Origin: Acidobacteriota bacterium
GTDB lineage: Bacteria; Acidobacteriota; Terriglobia; Bryobacterales; Bryobacteraceae
Reading direction: 5' to 3'
DNA: 32,349 nt
Assembly: GCA_016213775.1 (NCBI GenBank)
Contig: JACQZR010000192.1
Location: 1 to 32,349 of the forward strand
The notes under the pieces were generated by a model. The model had not been told where the DNA came from and searched no databases. It saw only the letters and a program-made list of their open reading frames with translations. This document shows, piece by piece, positions 8,046 through 22,210 of this stretch. The position numbers and the translations under genes are program-made. Each line of letters begins with the position of its first letter. Position 1 is the stretch's first letter.

Positions 8046-8978
8046 TCAGGAGCGGAGGTAGCCCGGGTGTTTCCAGGGTTCGAGGGCTGCGTAGTCGACA
8101 CGGGCGATCCGTCGCCTGAGCGTGTCCATCTCCATGGCTGTCATGGGGCGGGCAGTGCGGGCCGCGGCCACATTGGTGTCCACCTGCGAAGGCTGGTCCA
8201 TGCCGAGGATTGCCGTGGCGATCGGGAGCGACCAGACGTAGCGAAGACACTCTTCCACTGTTGCGGTCTTGCGGTTGAGGACCTGGCCGGCGCTCAGGGC
8301 TTTCATGGCGATGATGCCGAGGCCTTTCTTTTGCGCCAGAGGGAGCGTGACCCGCTCGAAGCTCTTCTGCGCGTTGGTACCATCCACGGCGCTCAAAGGC
8401 AGCAACACGGTGGACCAGTTGTAGCGCGCCATGATCTTGTTGTGGATGGCGGGGTCGGTGTGCCCGGTGAAGCCGACGTGGCGGATCTTACCGGCTTTGC
8501 GGGCGCGCTCGATCATCTCCATGACGCCCTTGGGGCCGAAGATGAATTCGATGTCCTCGTCGTTGATGACGTTGTGGACCTGGTACAGGTCGATGTAGTC
8601 GGTTTTGAGATTGCCGAGGGATTGGTCGAGATCGAGTTGGGCCTGGGTAGCGGAACGGTGGCGTGTTTTCGTCCCGTAGACGACTTTGTCGCGCTTGCCC
8701 TTGAGGGCGAGTCCATAGCGCATCTGGCTAAGTCCGTAGGCGCCGGCAGAAGCGGCATCGAAGTAGTTGACGCCCATGTCGAAGCAACGGCGGACGACGT
8801 CCTGGGCCTGTTTGCCGTCGTCAAGCATGCCGATGCGCGCGCCGCCGAGGCCGAGGATGGAGACGTGCAGTCCGGTCGCGCCGAGGGGGCGTTTGGGAAT
8901 CTCGGGAGCAGCTTGGGCGGAGGCCGCGAGACCGAGTGCGGCGAGCGATCGAACGGCTTGACGGCGGCTGGTTGGCAT
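8046..8978 (-). CDS. Aldo/keto reductase with Tat-type leader
   Basis: The ATG at 8978 gives 310 residues; it has an AGGA site about nine bases upstream, and the longer open frame is not protein-like before it. The leader MPTSRRQAVRSLAALGLAASAQA has a twin-arginine motif, so the folded enzyme is probably exported. All four residues of the aldo/keto reductase active site can be placed: D74, Y81, K104 and H135 (in YFDAASAGAYG, GTKT, and DLYQVHNV). The family reduces aldehydes and ketones with NADPH. A cofactor-dependent enzyme in the periplasm is unusual, so a bound cofactor or a lipoprotein-like fate is possible. It lies 25 bases after the exported coiled-coil gene. Confidence 0.9.
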   Translation of the reverse strand: MPTSRRQAVRSLAALGLAASAQAAPEIPKRPLGATGLHVSILGLGGARIGMLDDGKQAQDVVRRCFDMGVNYFDAASAGAYGLSQMRYGLALKGKRDKVVYGTKTRHRSATQAQLDLDQSLGNLKTDYIDLYQVHNVINDEDIEFIFGPKGVMEMIERARKAGKIRHVGFTGHTDPAIHNKIMARYNWSTVLLPLSAVDGTNAQKSFERVTLPLAQKKGLGIIAMKALSAGQVLNRKTATVEECLRYVWSLPIATAILGMDQPSQVDTNVAAARTARPMTAMEMDTLRRRIARVDYAALEPWKHPGYLRS

Positions 8979-9003
8979 GCTGGAAATCCTATCACAGCCG
9001 GAG

Positions 9004-9999
9004 TCAGTCGTCGTTTTTGCGTTCGGCTTTCGGGATAAGCATCTCGACATCATCGGCGGTCTGGAACAAAACGTACTGTTGAAAACCGGTTCGGGACAGC
9101 TCCTGTATCTGCCGGCGCTGATTCTCGATCTGCGCCTTGAGTGCCTTGATGTCCGGATGGTCGACGCGGTAGGTCTGAAGAAGCTGGTCGAGGCGGCGTT
9201 GCAATAATACGAGACGCTCCATGGTGCGGTACCCGCTCTTGGGGCTCGATGGGTCCTTGTAGACCCAGATGGTGCGGTAGTCGGATTTTTGCAGAACGTT
9301 GCTCCTGCAGGTGACCTCGACGAGGTCGGTACCAGCGTGGAAGCGGAGGACGTTGCGGTCGACCCAGCCAGAGGCTTCAAAGGGGTATTTGGGCGCAGGG
9401 TCAAGAGCGAAGTAGAAAACGCCGCGTCCCGGGAGAGTGATGCTGGCCGCGGCTCCGATGAGCCAGGAGCGCTCCGATTCGTCTATGGTGCGTCCGGCAA
9501 TCGCCACGCGGCATGACTGGAATGAGAACTGGATCTGCCTGGAGGCGGGAGGCTTCGACACCGGTTCGGGCCGGTTGGCGACCCGGATGACGTCGAAGAT
9601 CTTTTCGTTCGTGCCGGGGTTACGAAGGATATCCACCTGGACTTCGTCTCCGGCTTGGAGCGGCGAGAATTCGCGAGAGGCGGAGAGAGTAGCCACCAGT
9701 TCCTGCATTGGATCGATGGGTTGGATTCGCAGGCGGAAGGTGGCGGAGGATATCTTTTGGGCCTCAATCCTGTAGGCGAAAAGCAGCACTCCCTCCCTGC
9801 CGAGGACGATGCGTTTGACGGAGTTGTCAGGGCCGACGATGACGGACCCGCTGGTGGACAGCGGGGCTTTGTCGGAGGTGGATTCGGTCCGAATCTCGAG
9901 CGCGGTGCCGTCGGGGAAATGCGTTTGCAAGGTCTTCGGCGAACGAGTCTGCGCGAAGAGAGAGAAGGCTGCAAAGAGAGACAGGAGACAGCGGGTCAT
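9004..9999 (-). CDS. Exported protein of unknown function with C-terminal coiled coil
   Basis: The product has 331 residues with a signal peptide (MTRCLLSLFAAFSLFAQ). The middle (about 20-245) is predicted mostly beta strands and is not a family I recognise. Residues about 265-310 form a likely coiled coil (RLVLLQRRLDQLLQTYR, then LKAQIENQRRQIQEL). It overlaps the preceding small membrane-protein gene by ATGA (9996-9999), so it is the third gene of a sigma, membrane protein, exported protein set. That suggests it is a periplasmic partner or signal-responsive element of the putative anti-sigma protein; this is inference from order only. Confidence 0.75.
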   Translation of the reverse strand: MTRCLLSLFAAFSLFAQTRSPKTLQTHFPDGTALEIRTESTSDKAPLSTSGSVIVGPDNSVKRIVLGREGVLLFAYRIEAQKISSATFRLRIQPIDPMQELVATLSASREFSPLQAGDEVQVDILRNPGTNEKIFDVIRVANRPEPVSKPPASRQIQFSFQSCRVAIAGRTIDESERSWLIGAAASITLPGRGVFYFALDPAPKYPFEASGWVDRNVLRFHAGTDLVEVTCRSNVLQKSDYRTIWVYKDPSSPKSGYRTMERLVLLQRRLDQLLQTYRVDHPDIKALKAQIENQRRQIQELSRTGFQQYVLFQTADDVEMLIPKAERKNDD

Positions 10000-13565: not shown

Positions 13566-13626
13566 GGCCTATATAGCTTACAGCCATCAGCGGTGCGCTT
13601 TCAGCCATGGTGTACGAATTGCTATA

Positions 13627-13643
13627 GTAGTGAATGTCACTAC
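13627..13643 (+). promoter_or_regulatory. Perfect palindrome, likely autoregulatory operator of the toxin-antitoxin operon
   Basis: A 7-base arm, GTAGTGA, is followed by three bases and its exact complement TCACTAC. The left arm overlaps a TATAGT box (13623-13628) that could be the -10; a TTTCAG box at 13599-13604 is 18 bases upstream. The palindrome ends three bases before the AGGAGG ribosome site of the antitoxin. This is where Phd-type antitoxins, often with their toxin, bind to repress their own operon. Confidence 0.55.
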
Positions 13644-13655
13644 ATAGGAGGGACG

Positions 13656-13898
13656 ATGGAGAGGTCCATTTCCGCCGCGGAGGCAAATCGGCGGTTCTCG
13701 GAACTGCTTCGAACGGTAAAAAGTGGAGAGAGTGTCATCGTTACGAGTCACGGAAGGCCAGTGGCGAAGCTGGTGCCTTTTGCGGAGGACGATCGTGTGG
13801 CGGAGAATGCTCGTTCCATCCTGTTCGCGCGGCTGCGAAAGCAACGCGTCGTGAAGGTGGGACCTTGGACGCGTGACGAGCTCTACGATCAGCCATGA
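13656..13898 (+). CDS. Phd/YefM-type antitoxin
   Basis: The ATG at 13656 has AGGAGG five bases upstream and gives 80 residues. The N-terminal half (about 1-42) is a Phd/YefM DNA-binding fold: SISAAEANRRFSELLRTV, then GESVIVTSHGRPVAKLVPF, with the typical SHGRPVA strand. The C-terminal part (about 45-80) would wrap around and block the toxin. The stop overlaps the toxin start as ATGA (13895-13898). It is expected to bind the palindrome just upstream and repress the pair. The divergent neighbour is a gluconolactonase gene, so the pair looks like an insertion between unrelated genes. Confidence 0.9.
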   Translation: MERSISAAEANRRFSELLRTVKSGESVIVTSHGRPVAKLVPFAEDDRVAENARSILFARLRKQRVVKVGPWTRDELYDQP

Positions 13899-14347
13899 GA
13901 ATCAGCCTGGATACTAACGTGCTGGCGTACGCGGAAGGCACGAACGGAGAGGCGATGCGAGACCGGGCGATGGAGATGGTCCGGCGATTGCCTCAAGGCA
14001 ATATCTGCATTCCGGTCCAGGTTCTGGGTGAGCTGTTCAACGTTCTTGTTCTCAAAGCCAAGCGAAAGCGAGCGCGGGCGCGGGCAGCAGTTTTGAACTG
14101 GAGCGCCGCCTACTCACGGATCGAGACGTCACCGGTAGTGATGGCGAACGCGATTGACCTTGCGGCCGATCATGGACTCTCGATTTGGGACTCCGTGGTG
14201 TTGTCCGCCTCGGCGGAGGCGGAATGCCGGCTTCTACTGTCTGAAGATATGCAGACAGGATTGAACTGGAATGGCGTGACAGTGGTGAACCCGTTTGCCG
14301 CGAATTTGCACCCCATGCTGGTTGCGCTGCTGAAAGCGAGCAGTTAA
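13895..14347 (+). CDS. PIN-domain toxin (VapC-type ribonuclease)
   Basis: The 150-residue protein is a single PIN domain. The four acidic residues that hold the catalytic metal ions can be placed: D6 (SLDTNVLAY), E46 (VLGELFN), D99 (IWDSVVL) and D118 (LLSEDMQ). VapC-type PIN toxins cut specific RNAs, commonly tRNA or rRNA, when the antitoxin is lost. It is encoded after, and overlaps by ATGA with, a Phd-type antitoxin. The set is complete with no frameshift. The RNA target cannot be predicted. Confidence 0.92.
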   Translation: MRISLDTNVLAYAEGTNGEAMRDRAMEMVRRLPQGNICIPVQVLGELFNVLVLKAKRKRARARAAVLNWSAAYSRIETSPVVMANAIDLAADHGLSIWDSVVLSASAEAECRLLLSEDMQTGLNWNGVTVVNPFAANLHPMLVALLKASS

Positions 14348-14523
14348 ACCTCACGACGGCCGATGCCACGTTTTCGTGTCGCCGCAGGCACGGTCGCGAT
14401 CAGTGCGGGTTAGTCTCAAGTGTTAAAACTTCGAGTTGTTCACTTTTGAATTGTCCAGAATCACCCCAAATCTCGCGTGTAAACGACAAGGGAGTCTCCA
14501 ATGGTGAGATCAGTTCGAGTTTC
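14348..14523 (+). promoter_or_regulatory. Leader region of the two-component/porin operon
   Basis: These 176 bases lie between the PIN toxin stop and the response-regulator start. They are more AT-rich near 14420-14455 than the flanks, which fits a promoter, but no convincing -35/-10 pair was found. A possible 13-codon leader frame is described separately. No clear terminator follows the toxin gene. Confidence 0.3.
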
Positions 14524-14542
14524 ATGCAAACCATCCTATTGA
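14501..14542 (+). other. Possible 13-codon leader ORF overlapping the regulator start
   Basis: An AAGGGAG ribosome site (14488-14494) sits six bases before an ATG at 14501 that opens the short frame MVRSVRVSCKPSY, ending TGA at 14540-14542. The frame overlaps the regulator ATG at 14524, which itself lacks a good ribosome site. Translation of the leader could therefore deliver ribosomes to the regulator start. It may equally be chance. Confidence 0.3.
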
Positions 14543-15198
14543 TCGATGATGATGAGAGCCTACGTGATACCATCGCCCTACTTCTGGAACGGGAAGGGTA
14601 TAGCGTCGTTCATGCTGCCAACGGCGTAGCCGGTTTCGATCGGGCCCTGACGCTGAAACCTGCCTTGTTGCTGGTGGATCTACGTCTTCCGGGTATGAGC
14701 GGCATGCAGATCTGCCAGCAGTTGCGTGCGGCGAACATTCGGACGCCGATTATCGTTCTCAGCGCAATCGGCGAGGAAGTCGACAAAGTGCTGTTGCTCG
14801 AAATCGGCGCGGATGACTATCTTGTCAAACCGTTTGGCGTGCGGGAACTGTTGGCTCGTATCCGAGCCGTACTCCGCCGCTCCGCCGCCGACGATCGAAG
14901 GACGCTGAGCTTTGGTCAAGTGGAGGTCGATATCGAGCGCCGCATGATCACCTGTCGCGGGCAGGAGTTGAAGTTTACGCCCGCCGAGTACAACCTGCTG
15001 ACTTATTTCCTGCAGAACCCGGATAGGGCTCTGACACGCGACATGATACTTAATTCGGTTTGGGGATACGAATACTTTTCCAGCACACGAACAGTGGACG
15101 CCCACGTGGTGAAGCTGCGGCAGAAGCTGGAGCCGGAGCCAAATGTACCTCGGCATTTCCTCACTGTGCACGGTGTCGGATATCGTTTCATGCCATGA
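14524..15198 (+). CDS. OmpR/PhoB-family response regulator
   Basis: The ATG at 14524 is chosen because the receiver domain begins right after it (MQTILLIDDDESLRD), giving 224 residues. A TTG start at 14446 in the same frame would add 26 residues of unlikely sequence. The receiver domain holds the acidic pocket D8-D10, the phosphorylation site D52 (LLVDLRLPGMSG), S80 and K102 (YLVKPFG). The winged-helix output domain spans about 125-224 (KFTPAEYNLLTYFLQNP, STRTVDAHVVKLRQKL, VHGVGYRF). It would bind DNA when phosphorylated, most likely by the kinase encoded at the end of this operon. Its stop overlaps the start of a lone receiver gene (ATGA, 15195-15198). Confidence 0.93.
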   Translation: MQTILLIDDDESLRDTIALLLEREGYSVVHAANGVAGFDRALTLKPALLLVDLRLPGMSGMQICQQLRAANIRTPIIVLSAIGEEVDKVLLLEIGADDYLVKPFGVRELLARIRAVLRRSAADDRRTLSFGQVEVDIERRMITCRGQELKFTPAEYNLLTYFLQNPDRALTRDMILNSVWGYEYFSSTRTVDAHVVKLRQKLEPEPNVPRHFLTVHGVGYRFMP

Positions 15199-15596
15199 GT
15201 AATCGGGAAACGGTGACACTGTTGCTCGTTGACGACACGGAATGGTTCGGAGCTACGCTCGAGGTCGCGTTGATGACCATGCCAGATGTAAAGGTCGTCC
15301 GTGCGGAGAGCGGTGTGCAGGCATGGAGCTTACTGGAGCAACACGCGGTCGCTGCGATTGTAACGGATTTGCACATGGCAGACATGGACGGGTTCGAATT
15401 GATTGAGCGGGTGCGGGGGACTGCGGCGACGGTGGCAATTCCGATCATCGTTGTGAGCGCGGACTCCTCAGCGGACGCCCAGTGGCGGGCGCGGCGACTG
15501 GGCGCGAACTCGTTTTTCGTGAAACCCTGCTCACCGGCGGCTGTGCGGTGGAAGTTGGAGGAACTGCTCGATGCGTCTCATTTACGCGACTCGTAA
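15195..15596 (+). CDS. Single-domain response regulator (receiver only)
   Basis: The ATG at 15195 gives 133 residues and overlaps the preceding regulator's stop (ATGA). The protein is one receiver domain: acidic pocket D13-D14 (LLLVDDTEWFG), phosphorylation site D58 (IVTDLHMADMDGF), a Ser in IIVVSADSS, and the conserved Lys in FFVKPCS. There is no output domain, so it may act as a phosphate relay or sink, or by protein contact. It is coupled to the OmpR-type regulator and overlaps the porin gene by 26 bases (the porin ATG is at 15571). Two regulators facing one kinase is unusual for such a compact operon. Confidence 0.9.
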   Translation: MSNRETVTLLLVDDTEWFGATLEVALMTMPDVKVVRAESGVQAWSLLEQHAVAAIVTDLHMADMDGFELIERVRGTAATVAIPIIVVSADSSADAQWRARRLGANSFFVKPCSPAAVRWKLEELLDASHLRDS

Positions 15597-16923
15597 CAGT
15601 TTCGCGGGTATTGTCTTTAGCCTGATTCTAATCGCTATGCCGGAGTTGCCGGCATCAGCACAGGACCAGCCGGATTGGAAGGCGATCGTGCAACGGCTCG
15701 AACGGCTCGAGCGGGAGAATGAGGCGCTGCGCCAGGAGGTTCGTGGCTTGCGCGAGGAACTGCATCCTGTTGGGAACCCGGATACCCTGGAGCGGCTCGC
15801 GGTGCAGGAGAGCCGCACTGCTGAGCAGGCTCAGACCAAAGTCGAGTCGTCGCAGCGATTCCCCATCACTCTTACAGGGATGGCTCTGTTCAACGCATTT
15901 CTCAACTCCAAAGAGAATGGTGGGATTGACTATCCCACAATTGCGTCCCTGGGTCGCGGTAGCGCTACCGGAGGCGCGACTTTGCGTCAGACTGTGATCG
16001 GGTTGGAGTACAGCGGTCCCCAAACATTCCTAGGCGGCGCCGTCCGTGGCTCCTTATATATGGACTTCCTAGGTGGCACGGGCTTCCCCAACAACCAGTT
16101 GTTTCGTTTGCGAACGGCGGCGATCGCCATCGACTGGGGATCTCGCACGGTGATGCTCGGCCAGGACAAGCCCATCTTTTCGCCGCGCAGTCCCGATTCA
16201 CTGGCACAAGCGGTGGCGCCTTTGTCCGGCTCAGGCAACTTGTGGTTCTGGGAACCGCAGGCCAGATTCGAGCAGCGGATGAAACTGGGCGAGGAGTGGA
16301 CACTTCGCGCGCAGGCGGGCGTGGTACAAACGAGCGAGTTCCTTGCCAACGTGCCCGCCTCGGCCGCAGGGACGTTGGAACGGTACCGTCCCGGCGCCGA
16401 GGGCCGTTTCGAAGTCGCGTATCATTCGCAATCGGGCCGGCGGATAGAAATCGCTCCAGGCTTTCACTACAGTGCCAGCCACGTCGCGGGCGTTTCGGTT
16501 CCGTCGAATATTCTGTCTGTTGACTGGCTGCTTGTCCCAAAGCGTTGGCTTGAGTTCAAGGGTGCAGCTTACTCAGGAGAGAATCTGGCTCACTTCGGGT
16601 TGGGTGGGGCCCGCCAGGGGTTCACGGTGACTGGCCCGCGCAATGCCCTGCCTGTCAGGGGTAGAGGAGGATGGAGCCAACTCGGACTTCGCGCTAACTC
16701 CCGGTTGACCTTCCATTTCATGGCGGGACTCCACACCAGCGTTGCCAGAGACTTGGTGGCAGGTGACATCGGCGCCAACCGATCCTACGGAGGCAATCTC
16801 TACTATCGTCTCGCCCCCAACGTCATCGTTAGCTTCGAAGGGATGCAAACGAGAACCACCTACTCAGGAGTTGGACTGCGTTGGAACAACCACTATGATC
16901 TGGCACTCGCATACCTTTTCTAG
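15571..16923 (+). CDS. Porin-like outer-membrane beta-barrel protein with N-terminal coiled coil
   Basis: The product has 450 residues, with a hydrophobic leader in the first 30 (FAGIVFSLILIAMPELPASAQ). A short coiled coil follows at about 36-70 (IVQRLERLERENEALRQEV), typical of trimeric porins with a peptidoglycan- or periplasm-facing stalk. From about 100 on, the sequence has alternating amphipathic strands ending YDLALAYLF, with the terminal Phe signature of outer-membrane barrels. The pattern resembles DcaP-like porins. The gene starts inside the receiver gene and its end overlaps the cupredoxin gene, so it is part of the same transcript. The solute is unknown. Confidence 0.82.
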   Translation: MRLIYATRNSFAGIVFSLILIAMPELPASAQDQPDWKAIVQRLERLERENEALRQEVRGLREELHPVGNPDTLERLAVQESRTAEQAQTKVESSQRFPITLTGMALFNAFLNSKENGGIDYPTIASLGRGSATGGATLRQTVIGLEYSGPQTFLGGAVRGSLYMDFLGGTGFPNNQLFRLRTAAIAIDWGSRTVMLGQDKPIFSPRSPDSLAQAVAPLSGSGNLWFWEPQARFEQRMKLGEEWTLRAQAGVVQTSEFLANVPASAAGTLERYRPGAEGRFEVAYHSQSGRRIEIAPGFHYSASHVAGVSVPSNILSVDWLLVPKRWLEFKGAAYSGENLAHFGLGGARQGFTVTGPRNALPVRGRGGWSQLGLRANSRLTFHFMAGLHTSVARDLVAGDIGANRSYGGNLYYRLAPNVIVSFEGMQTRTTYSGVGLRWNNHYDLALAYLF

Positions 16924-17635
16924 ATCCTTAGCGGTGGGTCTGCTGTTCGGGTTTCTTCCGATCCCGATTCTCGCTGCCACTGTTCGCGGAACGGTGCAGC
17001 CGATCGACTCGCGGGCGCCCGCCGCGCGCAGGAACAAAGACTACTCGGGCGTTGTCGTCTGGCTTGAGCGCCGCGATGGCACAACGCCGGCGTTACAGCC
17101 CAAAACCGCGCGAATCGTCCAGAAGAACAAGCGCTTTGTGCCACCGGTGCTGGCCGTTCCGGTGGGTAGCACGGTAACATTTCCCAACTTCGATCCCATC
17201 TTTCACAACGCCTTTTCGAACTTCTCCGGGCAGATGTTCGACGTGGGGCTGCATCCTCCGGGAACCGCCCCGGCGGTGCGCTTTCAACGGGCGGGCTTTG
17301 TCCGTGTCTTCTGTAATATCCATGCGACGATGAGTGCCGTCATCGCCGTTCTGGCTACGCCGTACATGACGATCTCCAATTCGGACGGAGCCTTCGCGTT
17401 GGACCATGTTGCGTCGGGAGAGTATCGTTTGCACGTATTCCATGAGCGCTCCACCCAGGAGTCACTGAACGGCCTGGAAGTGGACCTCACGGTCGGCGAG
17501 ATAAACATCACGCTTCCGCTGATGCTGGTGCCCGAGAGCGATTCCGTTCGGGTTCCGCATAAGAACAAATTCGGACGAGACTATCCGCCCTCAGCCGATG
17601 ACGGTGCGATGTATCCCGCGGGGAGAAAACGATGA
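16895..17635 (+). CDS. Exported cupredoxin (plastocyanin-like, MauL-type) with carboxypeptidase-regulatory-like tail
   Basis: The ATG at 16895 lies inside the porin gene's end and gives 246 residues with a signal peptide (about 1-28). A type 1 copper site is visible: H104 (PIFHNAFSNF), C140, H143 and M146 (VFCNIHATM). This resembles the family often annotated as methylamine utilization protein or plastocyanin. Residues about 155-220 form a carboxypeptidase-regulatory-like beta domain (NSDGAFALDHVASGEYRLHVF). The protein would carry electrons or copper in the periplasm. The stop overlaps the kinase start (ATGA, 17632-17635). The Cys-His-Met spacing is shorter than in plastocyanin, so copper binding is likely but not certain. 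Confidence 0.85.
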   Translation: MIWHSHTFSRSLAVGLLFGFLPIPILAATVRGTVQPIDSRAPAARRNKDYSGVVVWLERRDGTTPALQPKTARIVQKNKRFVPPVLAVPVGSTVTFPNFDPIFHNAFSNFSGQMFDVGLHPPGTAPAVRFQRAGFVRVFCNIHATMSAVIAVLATPYMTISNSDGAFALDHVASGEYRLHVFHERSTQESLNGLEVDLTVGEINITLPLMLVPESDSVRVPHKNKFGRDYPPSADDGAMYPAGRKR

Positions 17636-19389
17636 TGTTGGGCTTCGTGCGAATGTCGATTCTGTGGAAGATTCTGCTGTCCACGTCGGTGGCGCTGACA
17701 ACTTTGTTCGCGGTCACTCTTTTGATTGTGCAACGGCAGGTGGCGCGCACTACTTTTCGAACTTTGGATGAGGCGGTGAACATCAGCTTCCAGGCGTACG
17801 ACTCGCTGTGGAGAGCGCGAGCGGACAAGCTGGCCTCGGTAAGCAAGGTGTTGAGCAGAATGTCCGATGTACGCGGGGCGTTTAGCACCGGAGATCAGGC
17901 CACGATACGCGATACCGCGGAAGAGTTGTGGTCTGCGATTTCCAACCAGCAGGCCCTGTTTCTGGTGACGGATCCGGCGGGTGTGGTGATCGCCTCGTTG
18001 GGGGGCGCGGCAGATTCTTTCCTGAAAGGCAGTCTACCCGTAGCCCGGGCGGCGGCGAGCCAGTTTCCCGCGCAATCCTCCGGCTTCATGATTCAGGACG
18101 GACGAATGTACCAGGTCGTGATCACCCCTGTGTATATCGACACTCAGCGTGGGCAGGCGTTGGAGGCCATTCTGGTGGCGGCTTATGTCATCGATTCGGT
18201 GGAAGCGAACCGCTTCAAAGAGGCTGCGGGCGGCAGCGAGTTTGTTTTCCTGTCGGGCGGGCGCGTTGTCGCCTCCACCGTGTCAGGAGGTCTACCGGCA
18301 TCAGAATCTGATTACGCGCACATCAGCAAGCCGCTGCTGGACTTGAATGGGCGCAGGATCGGCGAGTTGCGCATCTATCGCTCCTTATTGGCCGCGCGTC
18401 AGAACATCGCAGAGTTGCTGCGGAACATATATGCCATTTGGCTGGCGGCGGTTGCGATCGGCATGGTGCTCACCTGGTGGCTGTCACGCAGAATCATCGA
18501 ACCGCTCAAGGAGATGAATCGGGCAGCCGCTGAGATCGCCGGGGAGAATTATGAGGTGCGCGTGAGCGAGGGCAGACATGACGAGCTTGGCCGGTTGGCG
18601 CGCACGCTCAACGGAATGTGCGCAGCCCTGCAGACCGCGCGGGCCAAACTGATCCATCAGGAGCGGATGGCCACCATCAGCCGTCTCTCCACATCGATCA
18701 TTCACGACCTGCGGAATCCCCTCGCCGCCATCTACGGAGGCTCGGAGATGCTGGTCGATTTCGAACTTCCTCCTGATCAAGTGAAGCGCCTGGCAGCGAA
18801 CATGTACCGCGCTTCCTTGCGAGTCCGCGAACTACTCGCCGACCTGGCGGGCGTTGCCCGCGGGAAGAGTCAAACGGCGGAAATCTGCAACCTGCGAGAG
18901 GTGATCGCCGCAGCAACGGAAGTCTCCGCTGTAGCAGCCGTGAATCAAGGCGTCGAGATCCTGCTGTCTGTATCCGGGAGCATCGAGTTGCCACTGGAGC
19001 GCGGCCGAATGGAGCGGGTATTTCTCAACCTAATTGTGAACGCCATGGAAGCAATTCCTGATCATGGGACGATTGACATCACAAGCGAGGAGGCACGCGA
19101 TGCAGTAATCGTAGTGGTGGAAGATACGGGTCCCGGTATTCCTCCCCAGATCCGCGAAGCTTTGTTTGAGCCGTTCGTGAGCGCCTGTAAGAAGGACGGG
19201 CTGGGGCTCGGGCTTGCGCTTTCGCGGCAAACGGTGCTGGATCACGGCGGCGACATGTGGATCGAGCCGGCCAGTGGCGCCCGGTTCGTCATCCGCTTGC
19301 CCTTGAAAAGGCTCCCCGAGGAAATGCAAGCCTCCATGGAAGGAACCGAAAAGTGCCCGTCCGGGGGCGTCACACGCCAGGAGCACTGA
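17632..19389 (+). CDS. Membrane sensor histidine kinase
   Basis: The product has 585 residues; a second ATG directly follows the first. There is a membrane helix at about 11-33, a periplasmic region at about 35-262 that looks like a Cache-type sensor, a second helix at about 265-285, HAMP at about 286-340, and a HisKA domain with phosphorylated H358 (STSIIHDLRNPLAAIYGG). An HATPase domain follows at about 435-565 with N box (NLIVNAMEAI), G1 (EDTGPGIP) and G2 (GLGLGLAL). It senses something in the periplasm and phosphorylates the regulators at the front of this operon. Being encoded last, after the porin and cupredoxin, suggests it senses their state or substrate. Confidence 0.93.
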   Translation: MMLGFVRMSILWKILLSTSVALTTLFAVTLLIVQRQVARTTFRTLDEAVNISFQAYDSLWRARADKLASVSKVLSRMSDVRGAFSTGDQATIRDTAEELWSAISNQQALFLVTDPAGVVIASLGGAADSFLKGSLPVARAAASQFPAQSSGFMIQDGRMYQVVITPVYIDTQRGQALEAILVAAYVIDSVEANRFKEAAGGSEFVFLSGGRVVASTVSGGLPASESDYAHISKPLLDLNGRRIGELRIYRSLLAARQNIAELLRNIYAIWLAAVAIGMVLTWWLSRRIIEPLKEMNRAAAEIAGENYEVRVSEGRHDELGRLARTLNGMCAALQTARAKLIHQERMATISRLSTSIIHDLRNPLAAIYGGSEMLVDFELPPDQVKRLAANMYRASLRVRELLADLAGVARGKSQTAEICNLREVIAAATEVSAVAAVNQGVEILLSVSGSIELPLERGRMERVFLNLIVNAMEAIPDHGTIDITSEEARDAVIVVVEDTGPGIPPQIREALFEPFVSACKKDGLGLGLALSRQTVLDHGGDMWIEPASGARFVIRLPLKRLPEEMQASMEGTEKCPSGGVTRQEH

Positions 19390-19445: not shown

Positions 19446-20129
19446 TTATTTGGCCCCGCGGAAGAACCAGTAGTCGGCAGTGTATGGCACTAACGTCTGC
19501 TTGCCCACGTCTGCTGCCGACGTGCAACCATCAGCCGGGGCAGTTCCCCCTTTGGTGTTCAGGCGTTGGATGAACGTGGTTTGGGTTAGGAGTTTCCCAC
19601 CTGCCGGGCCTTGTTCAGTACCGACGGTCTCCAGCAACAGACAGGCAATTGCACCGTCGTTGGGGCAACTCGGGTCGGATCCAGCGGGAATCGCATTCCC
19701 ATGCAGGACCTGCGCCCACACTTTGCTGCTATCGAAAGAACTCTGCCAGGTCGCGTTCCCGAAGGGCAGCGGCCTTGGGACAGAGTCTTTGGGGTTTGTG
19801 TTGGGGCTGAGGAAGTGGGTGATGATCTGCACATCCTTCCCGAAGAATGTTTGAAACAGGGTGGCCTCCGGGCGGGCGCTATTGACGGTCCACGAAGCGC
19901 CAGTACTCGCCGGCAGGCACACATAGCCCTGAGTACCGGTCGCGCGTCCCAGCAAAAATGCAGTGTTTCCCTCAGGTGGTGTAATAAGGATGGGAGTTTT
20001 CGGCGACGCCACGTGCTGCGCCTCCGCGTTCGTGGCCGTGCCGAACGCACATCCGAGCACCAGAAGCGCTGCGAAGAGTCTCCGCGCTCCTCCAGCCGTG
20101 TGGAATTGGCAATCAACATTGTATCTCAT
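19446..20129 (-). CDS. Exported DUF3455-family protein
   Basis: The 227-residue protein has a leader with hydrophobic core at about 16-36 (RRLFAALLVLGCAFGTATNAEAQ). The remainder matches the DUF3455 pattern: a GYVCLP strand, WQSSFDSSKVWAQVLHG, AIACLLLETVGTEQGPAGG, and a C-terminal block with TKGGTAPADGC and VPYTADYWFF. Members are secreted proteins of unknown function. The start at 20129 is the only good in-frame start; its ribosome site is weak. The gene is convergent with the kinase (57 bases between stops) and divergent from the haem-binding gene pair. Confidence 0.8.
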   Translation of the reverse strand: MRYNVDCQFHTAGGARRLFAALLVLGCAFGTATNAEAQHVASPKTPILITPPEGNTAFLLGRATGTQGYVCLPASTGASWTVNSARPEATLFQTFFGKDVQIITHFLSPNTNPKDSVPRPLPFGNATWQSSFDSSKVWAQVLHGNAIPAGSDPSCPNDGAIACLLLETVGTEQGPAGGKLLTQTTFIQRLNTKGGTAPADGCTSAADVGKQTLVPYTADYWFFRGAK

Positions 20130-20268: not shown

Positions 20269-20387
20269 TTTCTTACAAGTTTTTTACGATTCTCTAACGA
20301 CCTACAGTGGCCACGGGCCGTATTCTGTGGGTGCAGGTTCACGAAATTCCTGAAGCGAAAAGAAACCCAATAGACAAAAGAGGAGCT

Positions 20388-20882
20388 ATGAGACGGAGAA
20401 TCCCTATGGCCGTGGCAGTCTGCCTTTTGGCGGCGATATGCATGATGGCTGCGCGGCCGCGAAATAAGCCGCCGGCAAGAGTGGGAGTGCCTATCGAGAG
20501 GGCGATCTCGATGCCGGCGGAGGTCGCGCGGCTGTTGGACCGTGGCTGCCGCGATTGTCACTCGAAGGAGACGAAGTGGCCCTGGTACAGCCGTATTCCA
20601 CCGGCATCCTGGATGATGGCAAACGACGTTGAGAAGGGCCGGATGGCGATGAACCTCTCGGATTGGCCGGCGAGCCGTCCGTGGAAAGCTGCTGGAGCGC
20701 TGCTGGCTGCGTGCGCCGCTGTGCAATCGGGACGTATGCCCTTACGGGGGTACATGCTATTGCATCGCGAGAGCCGCTGGAGCGAGCCGGAGAAGAAAGC
20801 ATTCTGTGAGTGGGCCAACGGAGAATCCCGGCGCCTTCTCGTAAATAACCAATTAACAACTAACAAGGAGTCAGAGAAATAA
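20388..20882 (+). CDS. Exported haem-binding-domain (Haem_bd-type) protein with CxxCH motif
   Basis: The ATG at 20388 follows a GAGGAG site; a second ATG at 20406 with GGAG seven bases upstream is also plausible. The 164-residue product starts with a hydrophobic leader (MAVAVCLLAAICMMAA). It carries a c-type haem attachment motif C54-x2-C57-H58 in the context GCRDCHSKETKWPWYSRIPP. The downstream block WMMANDVEKGRMAMNLSDW matches the Haem_bd family. The protein probably binds one haem covalently and works in the periplasm. Its stop overlaps the next gene's ATG by one base (TAATG), so the two are co-translated. Confidence 0.88.
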   Translation: MRRRIPMAVAVCLLAAICMMAARPRNKPPARVGVPIERAISMPAEVARLLDRGCRDCHSKETKWPWYSRIPPASWMMANDVEKGRMAMNLSDWPASRPWKAAGALLAACAAVQSGRMPLRGYMLLHRESRWSEPEKKAFCEWANGESRRLLVNNQLTTNKESEK

Positions 20883-22210
20883 TGAAGCTCACAAACACAT
20901 TTTTACCCGCGGCGTGTTTATTCGTCGCGGCGCCTTTCCTCTACGCATTCACCAGCGGAGCGCCGGAGCGAGTGAGCGGCGCGCCTGGAGAGAGGAATTG
21001 CACTTCGTGCCATGCCGGATCGCCGAATAGTGGCCCAGGGAAGGTGCGGATCGAGATGGTAGGAGCGGATAACTACACGCCCGGCCAGACAACTCGAATG
21101 CGTGTCGTCATCGAAGACGACTCTGCGAGGAAATGGGGATTTGAATTGAGCGCCCGCCCGGAGAACAATCCGGATGGGAACGCCGGCAGCTTCAAAGAGC
21201 TGGATGGAACCACCCAGGTTTTGATGGAAGGCATCTCGCAGTGGATCACGCATACAAGCGCGGGCGCGCGGCTGAATACCCGGGGGCCCATTGCATTTGA
21301 ATTCAACTATACTGCTCCGGCAAGCGATGTTGGACCGATCGTGTTCTATGCCTCAGCCAACGCGGCGAACGGCAACAGCAGCCCGTCTGGAGACAGTATC
21401 TACACGGCAGCGCTGACGGTGAGCCCCGCGGCTGTGGGTGTGCCGAGACCGTCGTTCCGTCCGGATGGAGTTAGTGATCTGTACACGGGACTGCCAGGGA
21501 TGGCGCCGGGAGCATGGGTGACCTTAACGGGGACGGATCTGGCATCGGGTAGGGCATATTGGGCGCCAGCGGCAGGCAAGCCGCTCGATACGGTTCTCGG
21601 GAAAGTGACCGTTAAGATCAATGACGTTCCCGCACCACTGTTGTACGTGGGACCGGACCGGATTCAACTTCTCGTGCCCGCGGCGACGCCTGAGGGAGAT
21701 GTCCCGGTAGTAGTGGAAAGCGACGGCCGAGTAAGCGAAACGGTGTTTGTTCAAAACCGGGCAGTGCTGCCGGCATTCGTGACAGTGCCGGCGATTAACT
21801 CGGATGCGCCACGGCTGTATGCAACAGCAACAACTGCAGGCGCAGGGACGGCGTTGGCCCTCATCAGCAACAAAGGTCTGATTCTGGGAAGGCCAGACGT
21901 GGATCCACGAGCTGTTCGCGGTGCACTTCCAGGCGAAGAGATCGACCTTTATGCGATCGGTCTGGGAAAGACGGATGAGGGGTTTGCGACAGATAGCATC
22001 AGTGTCGGAAGTAGCCCGCTCTCGAATACGCCGTCAGTACTGCTGGGCGAGGTGACGCTGACACCCACCTACACCGCGCTGGTTGCGCCCGGACTTTATG
22101 TGGTTCGGGTCAAGGTGCCCGACTCCGCGCCCGGCGGCGACACGCCCATCGTGCTTCAAGTGAACGGAATCAGCAGCCAGGCTAATGTGCTGGTTTATGT
22201 ACAGCAATAA
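20882..22210 (+). CDS. Exported CxxCH protein with a Reeler/choice-anchor-type domain and Solibacter-type C-terminal domain
   Basis: The 442-residue product has a signal peptide (about 1-22), then C40-x2-C43-H44 (NCTSCHAGSPNSG), another possible haem site. Residues about 50-180 resemble the Reeler-like choice-anchor V domain (WGFELSARPENNPDG, FEFNYTAPASDVGPIVFYASAN). Residues about 195-440 match the Solibacter C-terminal domain TIGR03437 (VTLTGTDLASG, GKVTVKINDVPAPLLYVGPDRIQLLVPAATPEGD, EIDLYAIGLGKT). This domain is common in exported acidobacterial proteins and its role is unknown. An AAGGAG site lies 12 bases before the ATG. It forms a pair with the haem-binding gene upstream. Confidence 0.88.
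   Translation: MKLTNTFLPAACLFVAAPFLYAFTSGAPERVSGAPGERNCTSCHAGSPNSGPGKVRIEMVGADNYTPGQTTRMRVVIEDDSARKWGFELSARPENNPDGNAGSFKELDGTTQVLMEGISQWITHTSAGARLNTRGPIAFEFNYTAPASDVGPIVFYASANAANGNSSPSGDSIYTAALTVSPAAVGVPRPSFRPDGVSDLYTGLPGMAPGAWVTLTGTDLASGRAYWAPAAGKPLDTVLGKVTVKINDVPAPLLYVGPDRIQLLVPAATPEGDVPVVVESDGRVSETVFVQNRAVLPAFVTVPAINSDAPRLYATATTAGAGTALALISNKGLILGRPDVDPRAVRGALPGEEIDLYAIGLGKTDEGFATDSISVGSSPLSNTPSVLLGEVTLTPTYTALVAPGLYVVRVKVPDSAPGGDTPIVLQVNGISSQANVLVYVQQ

Follow-up and report, generated by a model that had tools for sequence, protein, structure and literature searches.

A conserved porin, cupredoxin and histidine kinase operon in Acidobacteriota that may be a self-contained envelope-sensing system

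The subject of this report is a five-gene operon in a 32,349-nucleotide stretch of an Acidobacteriota genome (Bryobacteraceae; GenBank assembly GCA_016213775.1, contig JACQZR010000192.1, positions 1 to 32,349), which we refer to as the window. The operon encodes an OmpR/PhoB-type response regulator (RR1), a lone receiver (RR2), an outer-membrane porin, an exported type 1 cupredoxin, and a membrane histidine kinase (Table 1). The five-gene order, and a 29-nucleotide overlap between the porin and cupredoxin genes, are conserved in related genomes far beyond chance. We see roughly an even chance that the cupredoxin is the periplasmic signal-input partner of the membrane sensor, and that the operon is a self-contained envelope-sensing two-component system. 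In such a system, the porin would admit an outside solute (or an electron acceptor or donor) to the periplasm, or would serve the assembly as an outer-membrane anchor. The Cache sensor would have the soluble cupredoxin as its partner for periplasmic input, in an interaction that may shift with copper or redox state; the kinase would phosphorylate RR1 and/or RR2, and RR1 would adjust envelope and electron-transfer genes. The main argument for a cupredoxin that feeds a sensor comes from its relatives, which are paired with HD-GYP and EAL sensors as well as with kinases, and sensor-part covariation makes the sensing role more likely still.

All five reading frames are open in the window. The RR1/RR2 and cupredoxin/kinase junctions are both ATGA (at 15195 and 17632), and the RR2/porin and porin/cupredoxin junctions are overlaps of 26 and 29 nucleotides. 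A sequence-only reading of the window had called five overlapping genes in this order, and its coordinates and junctions proved accurate. Packing this tight suggests that the five genes share one transcript.

Relatives of the operon come from metagenome-assembled genomes of Bryobacterales, Bryobacteraceae, or Solibacter type, and the locus counts below refer to the best 80 of 389 confirmed places (the named loci). Nine of these are cut upstream by the contig start (L059, L066, L069, L072, L091, L100, L107, L108, and L123). The full five-gene order is present in 67 of the 71 that are not, directly in 62 cases and on inspection in five, which comprise a shortened regulator frame (L065), kinases cut by the contig end (L087 and L099), a frame-naming artefact (L089), and a locus with ~800 bases between porin and cupredoxin (L101). 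The other four each lack one gene, either the lone receiver (L094 and L098) or the first regulator (L116 and L124). At the 29-nucleotide porin/cupredoxin overlap, a start codon in the cupredoxin frame falls at exactly the expected place in 76 of 78 loci. In 55 of 80, the end of the cupredoxin gene is ATGA or GTGA, usable as a kinase start. All 18 family loci fetched with their flanks (16 of which are also among the named loci) have the five genes in order, one of them with a split regulator frame. At the genome level, the cupredoxin was matched in 116 of the 150 genomes of the family, and 86 have the close class (E 4.7e-59 or better; hand count of rows). The order is thus kept well beyond close relatives, and evolution has held the five genes together, which supports the earlier proposal of a dedicated sensing module. 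That proposal withstood the refuting conditions set for it, namely an order confined to close relatives or, in the titles and abstract openings searched, a published account of the operon in another role.

Elsewhere in the phylum, the porin profile matched 51 of 297 genomes at 1e-10. Porin and cupredoxin are adjacent in 11 of the 16 matched loci fetched from outside the family, ten of them with a kinase nearby and one (L185) with a dCache_3-HAMP protein (8628-9953, minus strand) whose frame ends before any Pfam output domain. Seven loci of one other family in the same class have the order regulator-kinase-porin-cupredoxin. The regulator-kinase pair is divergent in L182 and L183, and L180 has a hybrid kinase downstream, on the opposite strand. 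Because the parts stay together in other families in other orders, the unit has been kept through rearrangement. The last stretch of the L185 dCache_3-HAMP protein gave no Pfam match but looks, by eye, like the beginning of a class III nucleotide cyclase, which may be one more kind of output. The five outside-family loci without cupredoxin are L170, which keeps porin, kinase, and regulator, and L178, L179, L181, and L184, which keep the porin without the other parts. The L178 porin adjoins NirBD and a uroporphyrinogen methyltransferase, that of L184 adjoins a NarK-like transporter, and that of L179 is ~5 kb from a DMSO-reductase-II/NarH-like Fe-S subunit (the latter two identifications being below model cut-offs). 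These nitrite/nitrate-type neighbors suggest an anion-related use of the porin barrel family.

The products of the operon have the make-up of a two-component system, that is, a kinase with HisKA and HATPase_c domains and a regulator with receiver and winged helix. RR1 matches Response_reg (1.3e-27) and Trans_reg_C (1.2e-26) in Pfam and is ~61-79% identical to the regulators of relatives, and RR2 matches Response_reg (9.4e-19). Phospho-sites are kept in the kinase and in RR2: HDLRNPLA is invariant in 17 of 17 aligned kinases, and D58, S88, and K110 are invariant among 17 aligned RR2 sequences. The periplasmic sensor part of the kinase is probably CHASE4/dCache_3-like and is followed by HAMP, HisKA, and HATPase_c. 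At E 0.01, dCache_3 was matched in 16 of 17 kinases scanned, the one without a match being that of the window.

Both exported partners were identified chiefly by fold. The porin, which has a signal-peptide-like start (by eye) and a barrel whose last residue is Phe, belongs to no Pfam or NCBIfam family, does not group with DcaP-like porins by sequence, and gave only weak coiled-coil matches. An AlphaFold2 model (18 sequences; predicted local distance difference test score 75.2) places helices at 34-63 and 70-93 ahead of a C-terminal barrel. Its best fold match in the PDB is DcaP of Acinetobacter (6eus; Foldseek E 1.3e-14, TMt 0.78), so that the model has a DcaP-type barrel fold. The two helices are predicted to form a coiled coil, and DcaP, too, has an N-terminal coiled coil; however, the two proteins are only 15% identical in the structural alignment, and a PDB sequence search gave a profile match of only E 0.064. 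The model agrees with the earlier call of an outer-membrane porin with a coiled coil.

The cupredoxin, again with a signal-peptide-like start (by eye), has two domains, the second of which is C-terminal and carboxypeptidase-regulatory-like (its CarboxypepD_reg match is below the Pfam cut-off). Pfam cupredoxin models matched weakly, each in 7 of 19 members (best 0.0052). The fold matches of the cupredoxin domain are to purple cupredoxin, amicyanin, and plastocyanin (E about 1e-5, Foldseek). The copper ligands H104, C140, H143, and M146 are kept in 19 of 19 and 10 of 10 aligned cupredoxins, and the set is intact in 79 of the 80 named loci. Together with the fold, they agree with the identification of an exported type 1 cupredoxin made from the letters alone, and the protein probably binds copper. 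It shares with those proteins both the fold and a Cys-x2-His-x2-Met ligand loop, the spacing found in amicyanin. Unlike them, it adds the carboxypeptidase-regulatory-like domain and a PHKNKxGxDY tail (PHKNKFGRDYP in the window).

This tail sets the porin-linked cupredoxins apart. They end in a stretch of PHKNKYGxDYPP type, and the strict pattern is present in 86 of 94 of them (74 of the 80 named and 12 of 14 other) versus 0 of 35 other cupredoxins (0 of 18 of the second class, 0 of 7 linked to EAL or cache proteins, and 0 of 10 respiratory or other). The eight porin-linked proteins that miss it have near variants. We suggest that the tail may be a docking element for the porin or for the porin-linked kinase.

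Cupredoxin relatives outside the operon were also compared. In 20 paralogue loci hand-picked among family matches of ~3e-34 to 1e-16, a membrane sensor directly follows the cupredoxin in 16, and these sensors are evenly divided between histidine kinases (eight) and HD-GYP proteins (eight). In 15 of those 16, the next protein is 350-480 residues long, mostly with a signal-peptide-like start (by eye); three such third proteins that were scanned gave weak barrel matches (MtrB_PioB 0.0045, OMP_b-brl 0.0047) or no match. Five paralogue-locus sensors were scanned; their output domains were confirmed by Pfam, and their sensor parts match CHASE4 weakly or nothing. Loci L200, L206, L216, and L217 are without the cupredoxin-sensor arrangement. 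The source genome itself holds one cupredoxin paralogue with an HD-GYP sensor (L056). Two sets of plasmid records with matches (51 and 50) provided 13 proteobacterial loci, and in six of these the cupredoxin is directly followed by an EAL or GGDEF-EAL sensor (Comamonas, Caballeronia x3, Paraburkholderia, and Novosphingobium). The four of these sensors that were scanned have HAMP and dCache_3, one at 24.3 bits versus a cut-off of 25.7, and the L035 plasmid locus has a cache-domain fragment; L191 shows no clear arrangement. Another protein of outer-membrane type usually accompanies the paralogous and proteobacterial pairs. The sensor outputs vary, and the recurring element is therefore the cupredoxin with its sensor rather than one transcription circuit.

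Genes for DUF3034 and a group 1 truncated hemoglobin are annotated beside the cupredoxin in L035, L037, and L188-L190, hinting at O2 or NO as a signal; L195 has DUF3034. An apparent fusion of the cupredoxin to another domain at L187 was set aside, as the long open frame looks like an upstream frame extension (by eye).

Covariation was assessed from protein distances in 59 of the 80 named operons (those within score limits) plus the window, with 500 bootstraps. The cupredoxin domain covaries more with the sensor part of the kinase (r=0.56) than with the kinase core (0.37), and the difference was above zero in 97.4% of bootstraps. Its correlations with the porin and RR1 were 0.55 and 0.37.

Several observations weigh against a cupredoxin input to the kinase. 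The covariation effect is only moderate: the sensor part correlates more strongly with the porin (0.73) and RR1 (0.63) than with the cupredoxin, and for the porin the excess of sensor over core is uncertain, with 7.8% of bootstraps failing to exceed zero. The CHASE4 match of the window kinase is sub-threshold, at 22.2 bits for a Pfam cut-off of 26.2. The ligand His143 is replaced by Arg in one of the 80 named loci (L109). No cupredoxin match was found in 34 of the 150 family genomes, and the source genus has 4 other genomes, 3 of which are without the close class. Finally, five of the 13 plasmid loci are of respiratory type (two by annotation and three by similar neighboring frames), and in the source genome one further cupredoxin (L004) adjoins CyoE- and SCO-like frames (by eye) and another (L057) lies by heme proteins. 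Cupredoxin relatives thus occur in respiratory-type settings, and the fold is not specific to sensors.

These respiratory settings bear on the alternative that we find possible, if on the unlikely side, in which the operon is a local regulator beside its targets. The kinase would sense a small ligand or stress alone, and RR1 would control the porin and the cupredoxin, the latter being a periplasmic electron carrier for respiration or extracellular electron transfer. The type 1 copper site is kept, cupredoxin relatives adjoin oxidase and cytochrome genes, a ten-heme gene lies in the flanks of some loci, and a direct repeat upstream of part of the operons points to autoregulation (both described below). 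However, HD-GYP and GGDEF-EAL sensors take the same place beside the cupredoxin, and since neither kind is a transcription factor, control of neighboring target genes leaves those pairings unexplained; the covariation also favors the sensor over the kinase core. Control of DcaP-like uptake is unlikely. Here an organic acid or anion would be imported by the porin and bound by the Cache sensor, and the cupredoxin would be an accessory (e.g., one protecting or maturing an envelope enzyme). The DcaP fold match, the nitrite/nitrate-type neighbors of cupredoxin-free porin relatives (L178, L184, and L179), and the fact that Cache domains often bind small metabolites all count for it. Yet no catabolic family recurs widely beside the operon in the 80 loci (32 of which have full 10-kb flanks), the commonest clearly separate neighbor families (by eye) being TIGR03118 (14 loci) and TonB-receptor-like (13), with an ABC-ATPase-like gene in four, and where the full unit is kept the cupredoxin is kept too.

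Copper sensing and detoxification of the CusRS/CopRS kind, which we regard as quite improbable, would account for an OmpR-type regulator and a membrane kinase encoded with a copper-type protein, and 2 of the 17 kinases match the CusS sensor weakly (best 0.00062). The operon shares this general make-up and copper theme with CusRS/CopRS, but its proteins score far under the TIGR01386/TIGR01387 models (kinase 99.9 versus 292.55 bits, regulator 154.4 versus 279.2) and do not belong to them. Moreover, neither a copper pump or other metal exporter nor an oxidase was recognized by eye among the neighbor families that recur in at least four loci. Public annotation of related proteins as "methylamine utilization protein", and the presence of amicyanin among the fold matches, would suggest a role in methylamine utilization, which we consider barely credible: the recurring partners are sensors, and the light chain of methylamine dehydrogenase (PF02975) had 0 matches in the source genome, although the control genomes also gave none.

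A cupredoxin as signal-input partner has a formal parallel in LuxP-LuxQ, ChvE-VirA, and TorT-TorS, which are sensors with a periplasmic partner protein. As in those systems, the gene for an exported protein adjoins that for a membrane sensor with a periplasmic portion, a likeness of gene arrangement alone. The operon differs in that the partner is of blue-copper type, a porin is part of the unit, and the outputs include kinase, HD-GYP, and GGDEF-EAL. In the literature searched, titles and the opening parts of abstracts show no system with the same make-up, in keeping with the statement of the sequence-only reading that none was known.

Possible targets of the system were approached through a direct repeat, TGTAAA-N5-TGTAAA (11-bp period). 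The motif was picked after inspecting the sequences; 11 or 12 of its 12 positions are matched upstream of 21 of 68 operons versus 0.05 expected in shuffles. With spacing varied as a control (at least 10 of 12 matched), 21 sequences were found at a period of 11, 11 at 13, five at 9, three at 10, and none at 12. It resembles the CpxR box, which is GTAAA-(N)-GTAAA, in being an upstream direct repeat. However, it is not upstream of the window operon (best score 8 of 12 in 14304..14523), and the source genome as a whole has 0 exact sites. In 20 of the 21 strong-site genomes there are 42 exact sites versus six for the reversed pattern. Among the 42 are nine of the operon promoters on which the choice of motif was based, and two more lie upstream of another RR1-like gene. 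Other sites adjoin decaheme genes (L219 and L244, and L283 in the family scan), second-class cupredoxin-sensor operons (L220/L264 and L240/L265, with L263 behind a sigma-factor-like frame), a Rieske-like/cytochrome b6-like pair below model cut-offs (L255), and TIGR03118-like and sigma-factor-like frames; many are without a clear link. A stricter pattern across the family gave 41 sites in 37 of 150 genomes, in which the reversed pattern, as a control, had 0. Of 30 family sites read, at least 16 adjoin an orphan winged-helix gene, and Pfam confirmed Trans_reg_C for a similar gene (L262). Because the repeat is so often by this gene, again a difference from the CpxR box, the box cannot be credited to RR1 alone, and we treat the direct-repeat regulon as a lead only. 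The orphan protein has ~115-160 residues and no receiver, with the repeat just upstream of its gene (L276-L304), one of the cases being in the source genus (L276).

Ten-heme (decaheme) genes recur near the operon. One lies within the flanks of 9 of the 80 named loci, and the single flank gene scanned is of DmsE/MtrA type (TIGR03508, 266.9 bits versus a cut-off of 192.2). A ~690-residue protein is encoded beside it; of five such proteins scanned for an MtrB identity, Pfam recognized none. On another contig, the source genome has a 64% identical decaheme gene. In all, three ten-heme cytochrome genes were seen in the source genome (G000:C230, G000:C143, and G000:C177; L266-L268). Each adjoins a gene for a 669-814-residue protein that may be a barrel, and the one run against Pfam had no match.

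Table 1. Positions of the operon genes and their upstream region in the window
Feature	Position	Strand	Basis or remark
RR1, OmpR/PhoB-type response regulator	14524..15198	+	Receiver and winged helix
RR2, single-domain receiver without output domain	15195..15596	+	Response_reg alone
Porin, outer-membrane, DcaP-like fold	15571..16923	+	AlphaFold2 model, Foldseek
Type 1 cupredoxin, exported	16895..17635	+	Ligand residues, fold match
Membrane histidine kinase	17632..19389	+	HAMP, HisKA, and HATPase_c domains
Upstream region of operon	14304..14523	+	No clear TGTAAA-N5-TGTAAA repeat

The source genome comprises 10.96 Mb and is 98.5% complete with 4.6% contamination. Just 5' of the operon in the window is a pair of genes for a Phd/YefM-type antitoxin and a PIN-domain toxin (13593-14347, plus strand), and a DUF3455 protein gene is convergent to it (19446-20129, minus strand). 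Beyond these, at 20307-22210 (plus strand), the gene for a Haem_bd-domain protein touches one whose product, a choice-of-anchor V protein, carries a CxxCH motif as well as a Solibacter C-terminal domain. In another genome (L253), a direct-repeat site adjoins a frame with a similar start and one CxxCH.

Taken more broadly, the pairings raise the possibility, which we put forward tentatively, of a general and undescribed class of envelope sensors. In this class, a blue copper protein would be the input, and solutes or electron flow at the outer membrane (via the porin or barrel partner) would determine its redox or copper state. A Cache-type sensor would read that state, and the outputs (kinase, HD-GYP, or GGDEF-EAL) would be interchangeable. 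Where a "methylamine utilization protein" is annotated next to a sensor of this sort, it would act as a redox receptor, and the class would govern extracellular electron transfer in some Acidobacteriota.

If the cupredoxin is indeed the input, it would provide a modular means of converting periplasmic redox or copper state into kinase or cyclic di-GMP signals, present at least in Acidobacteriota and Proteobacteria, and "methylamine utilization protein" would be a misleading label for sensor-linked cupredoxins. The fixed 29-nucleotide overlap, the porin-specific tail, and the swapped outputs yield precise predictions that are open to test. The packing of cupredoxin, porin, and sensor into one unit, together with the pairing of related cupredoxins with other kinds of membrane sensor, suggests a little-known route for reading conditions at the cell surface. 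If the cupredoxin is the input, this route would also help to explain the sensing of electron acceptors by soil Acidobacteria, which are represented here mainly by metagenome assemblies.

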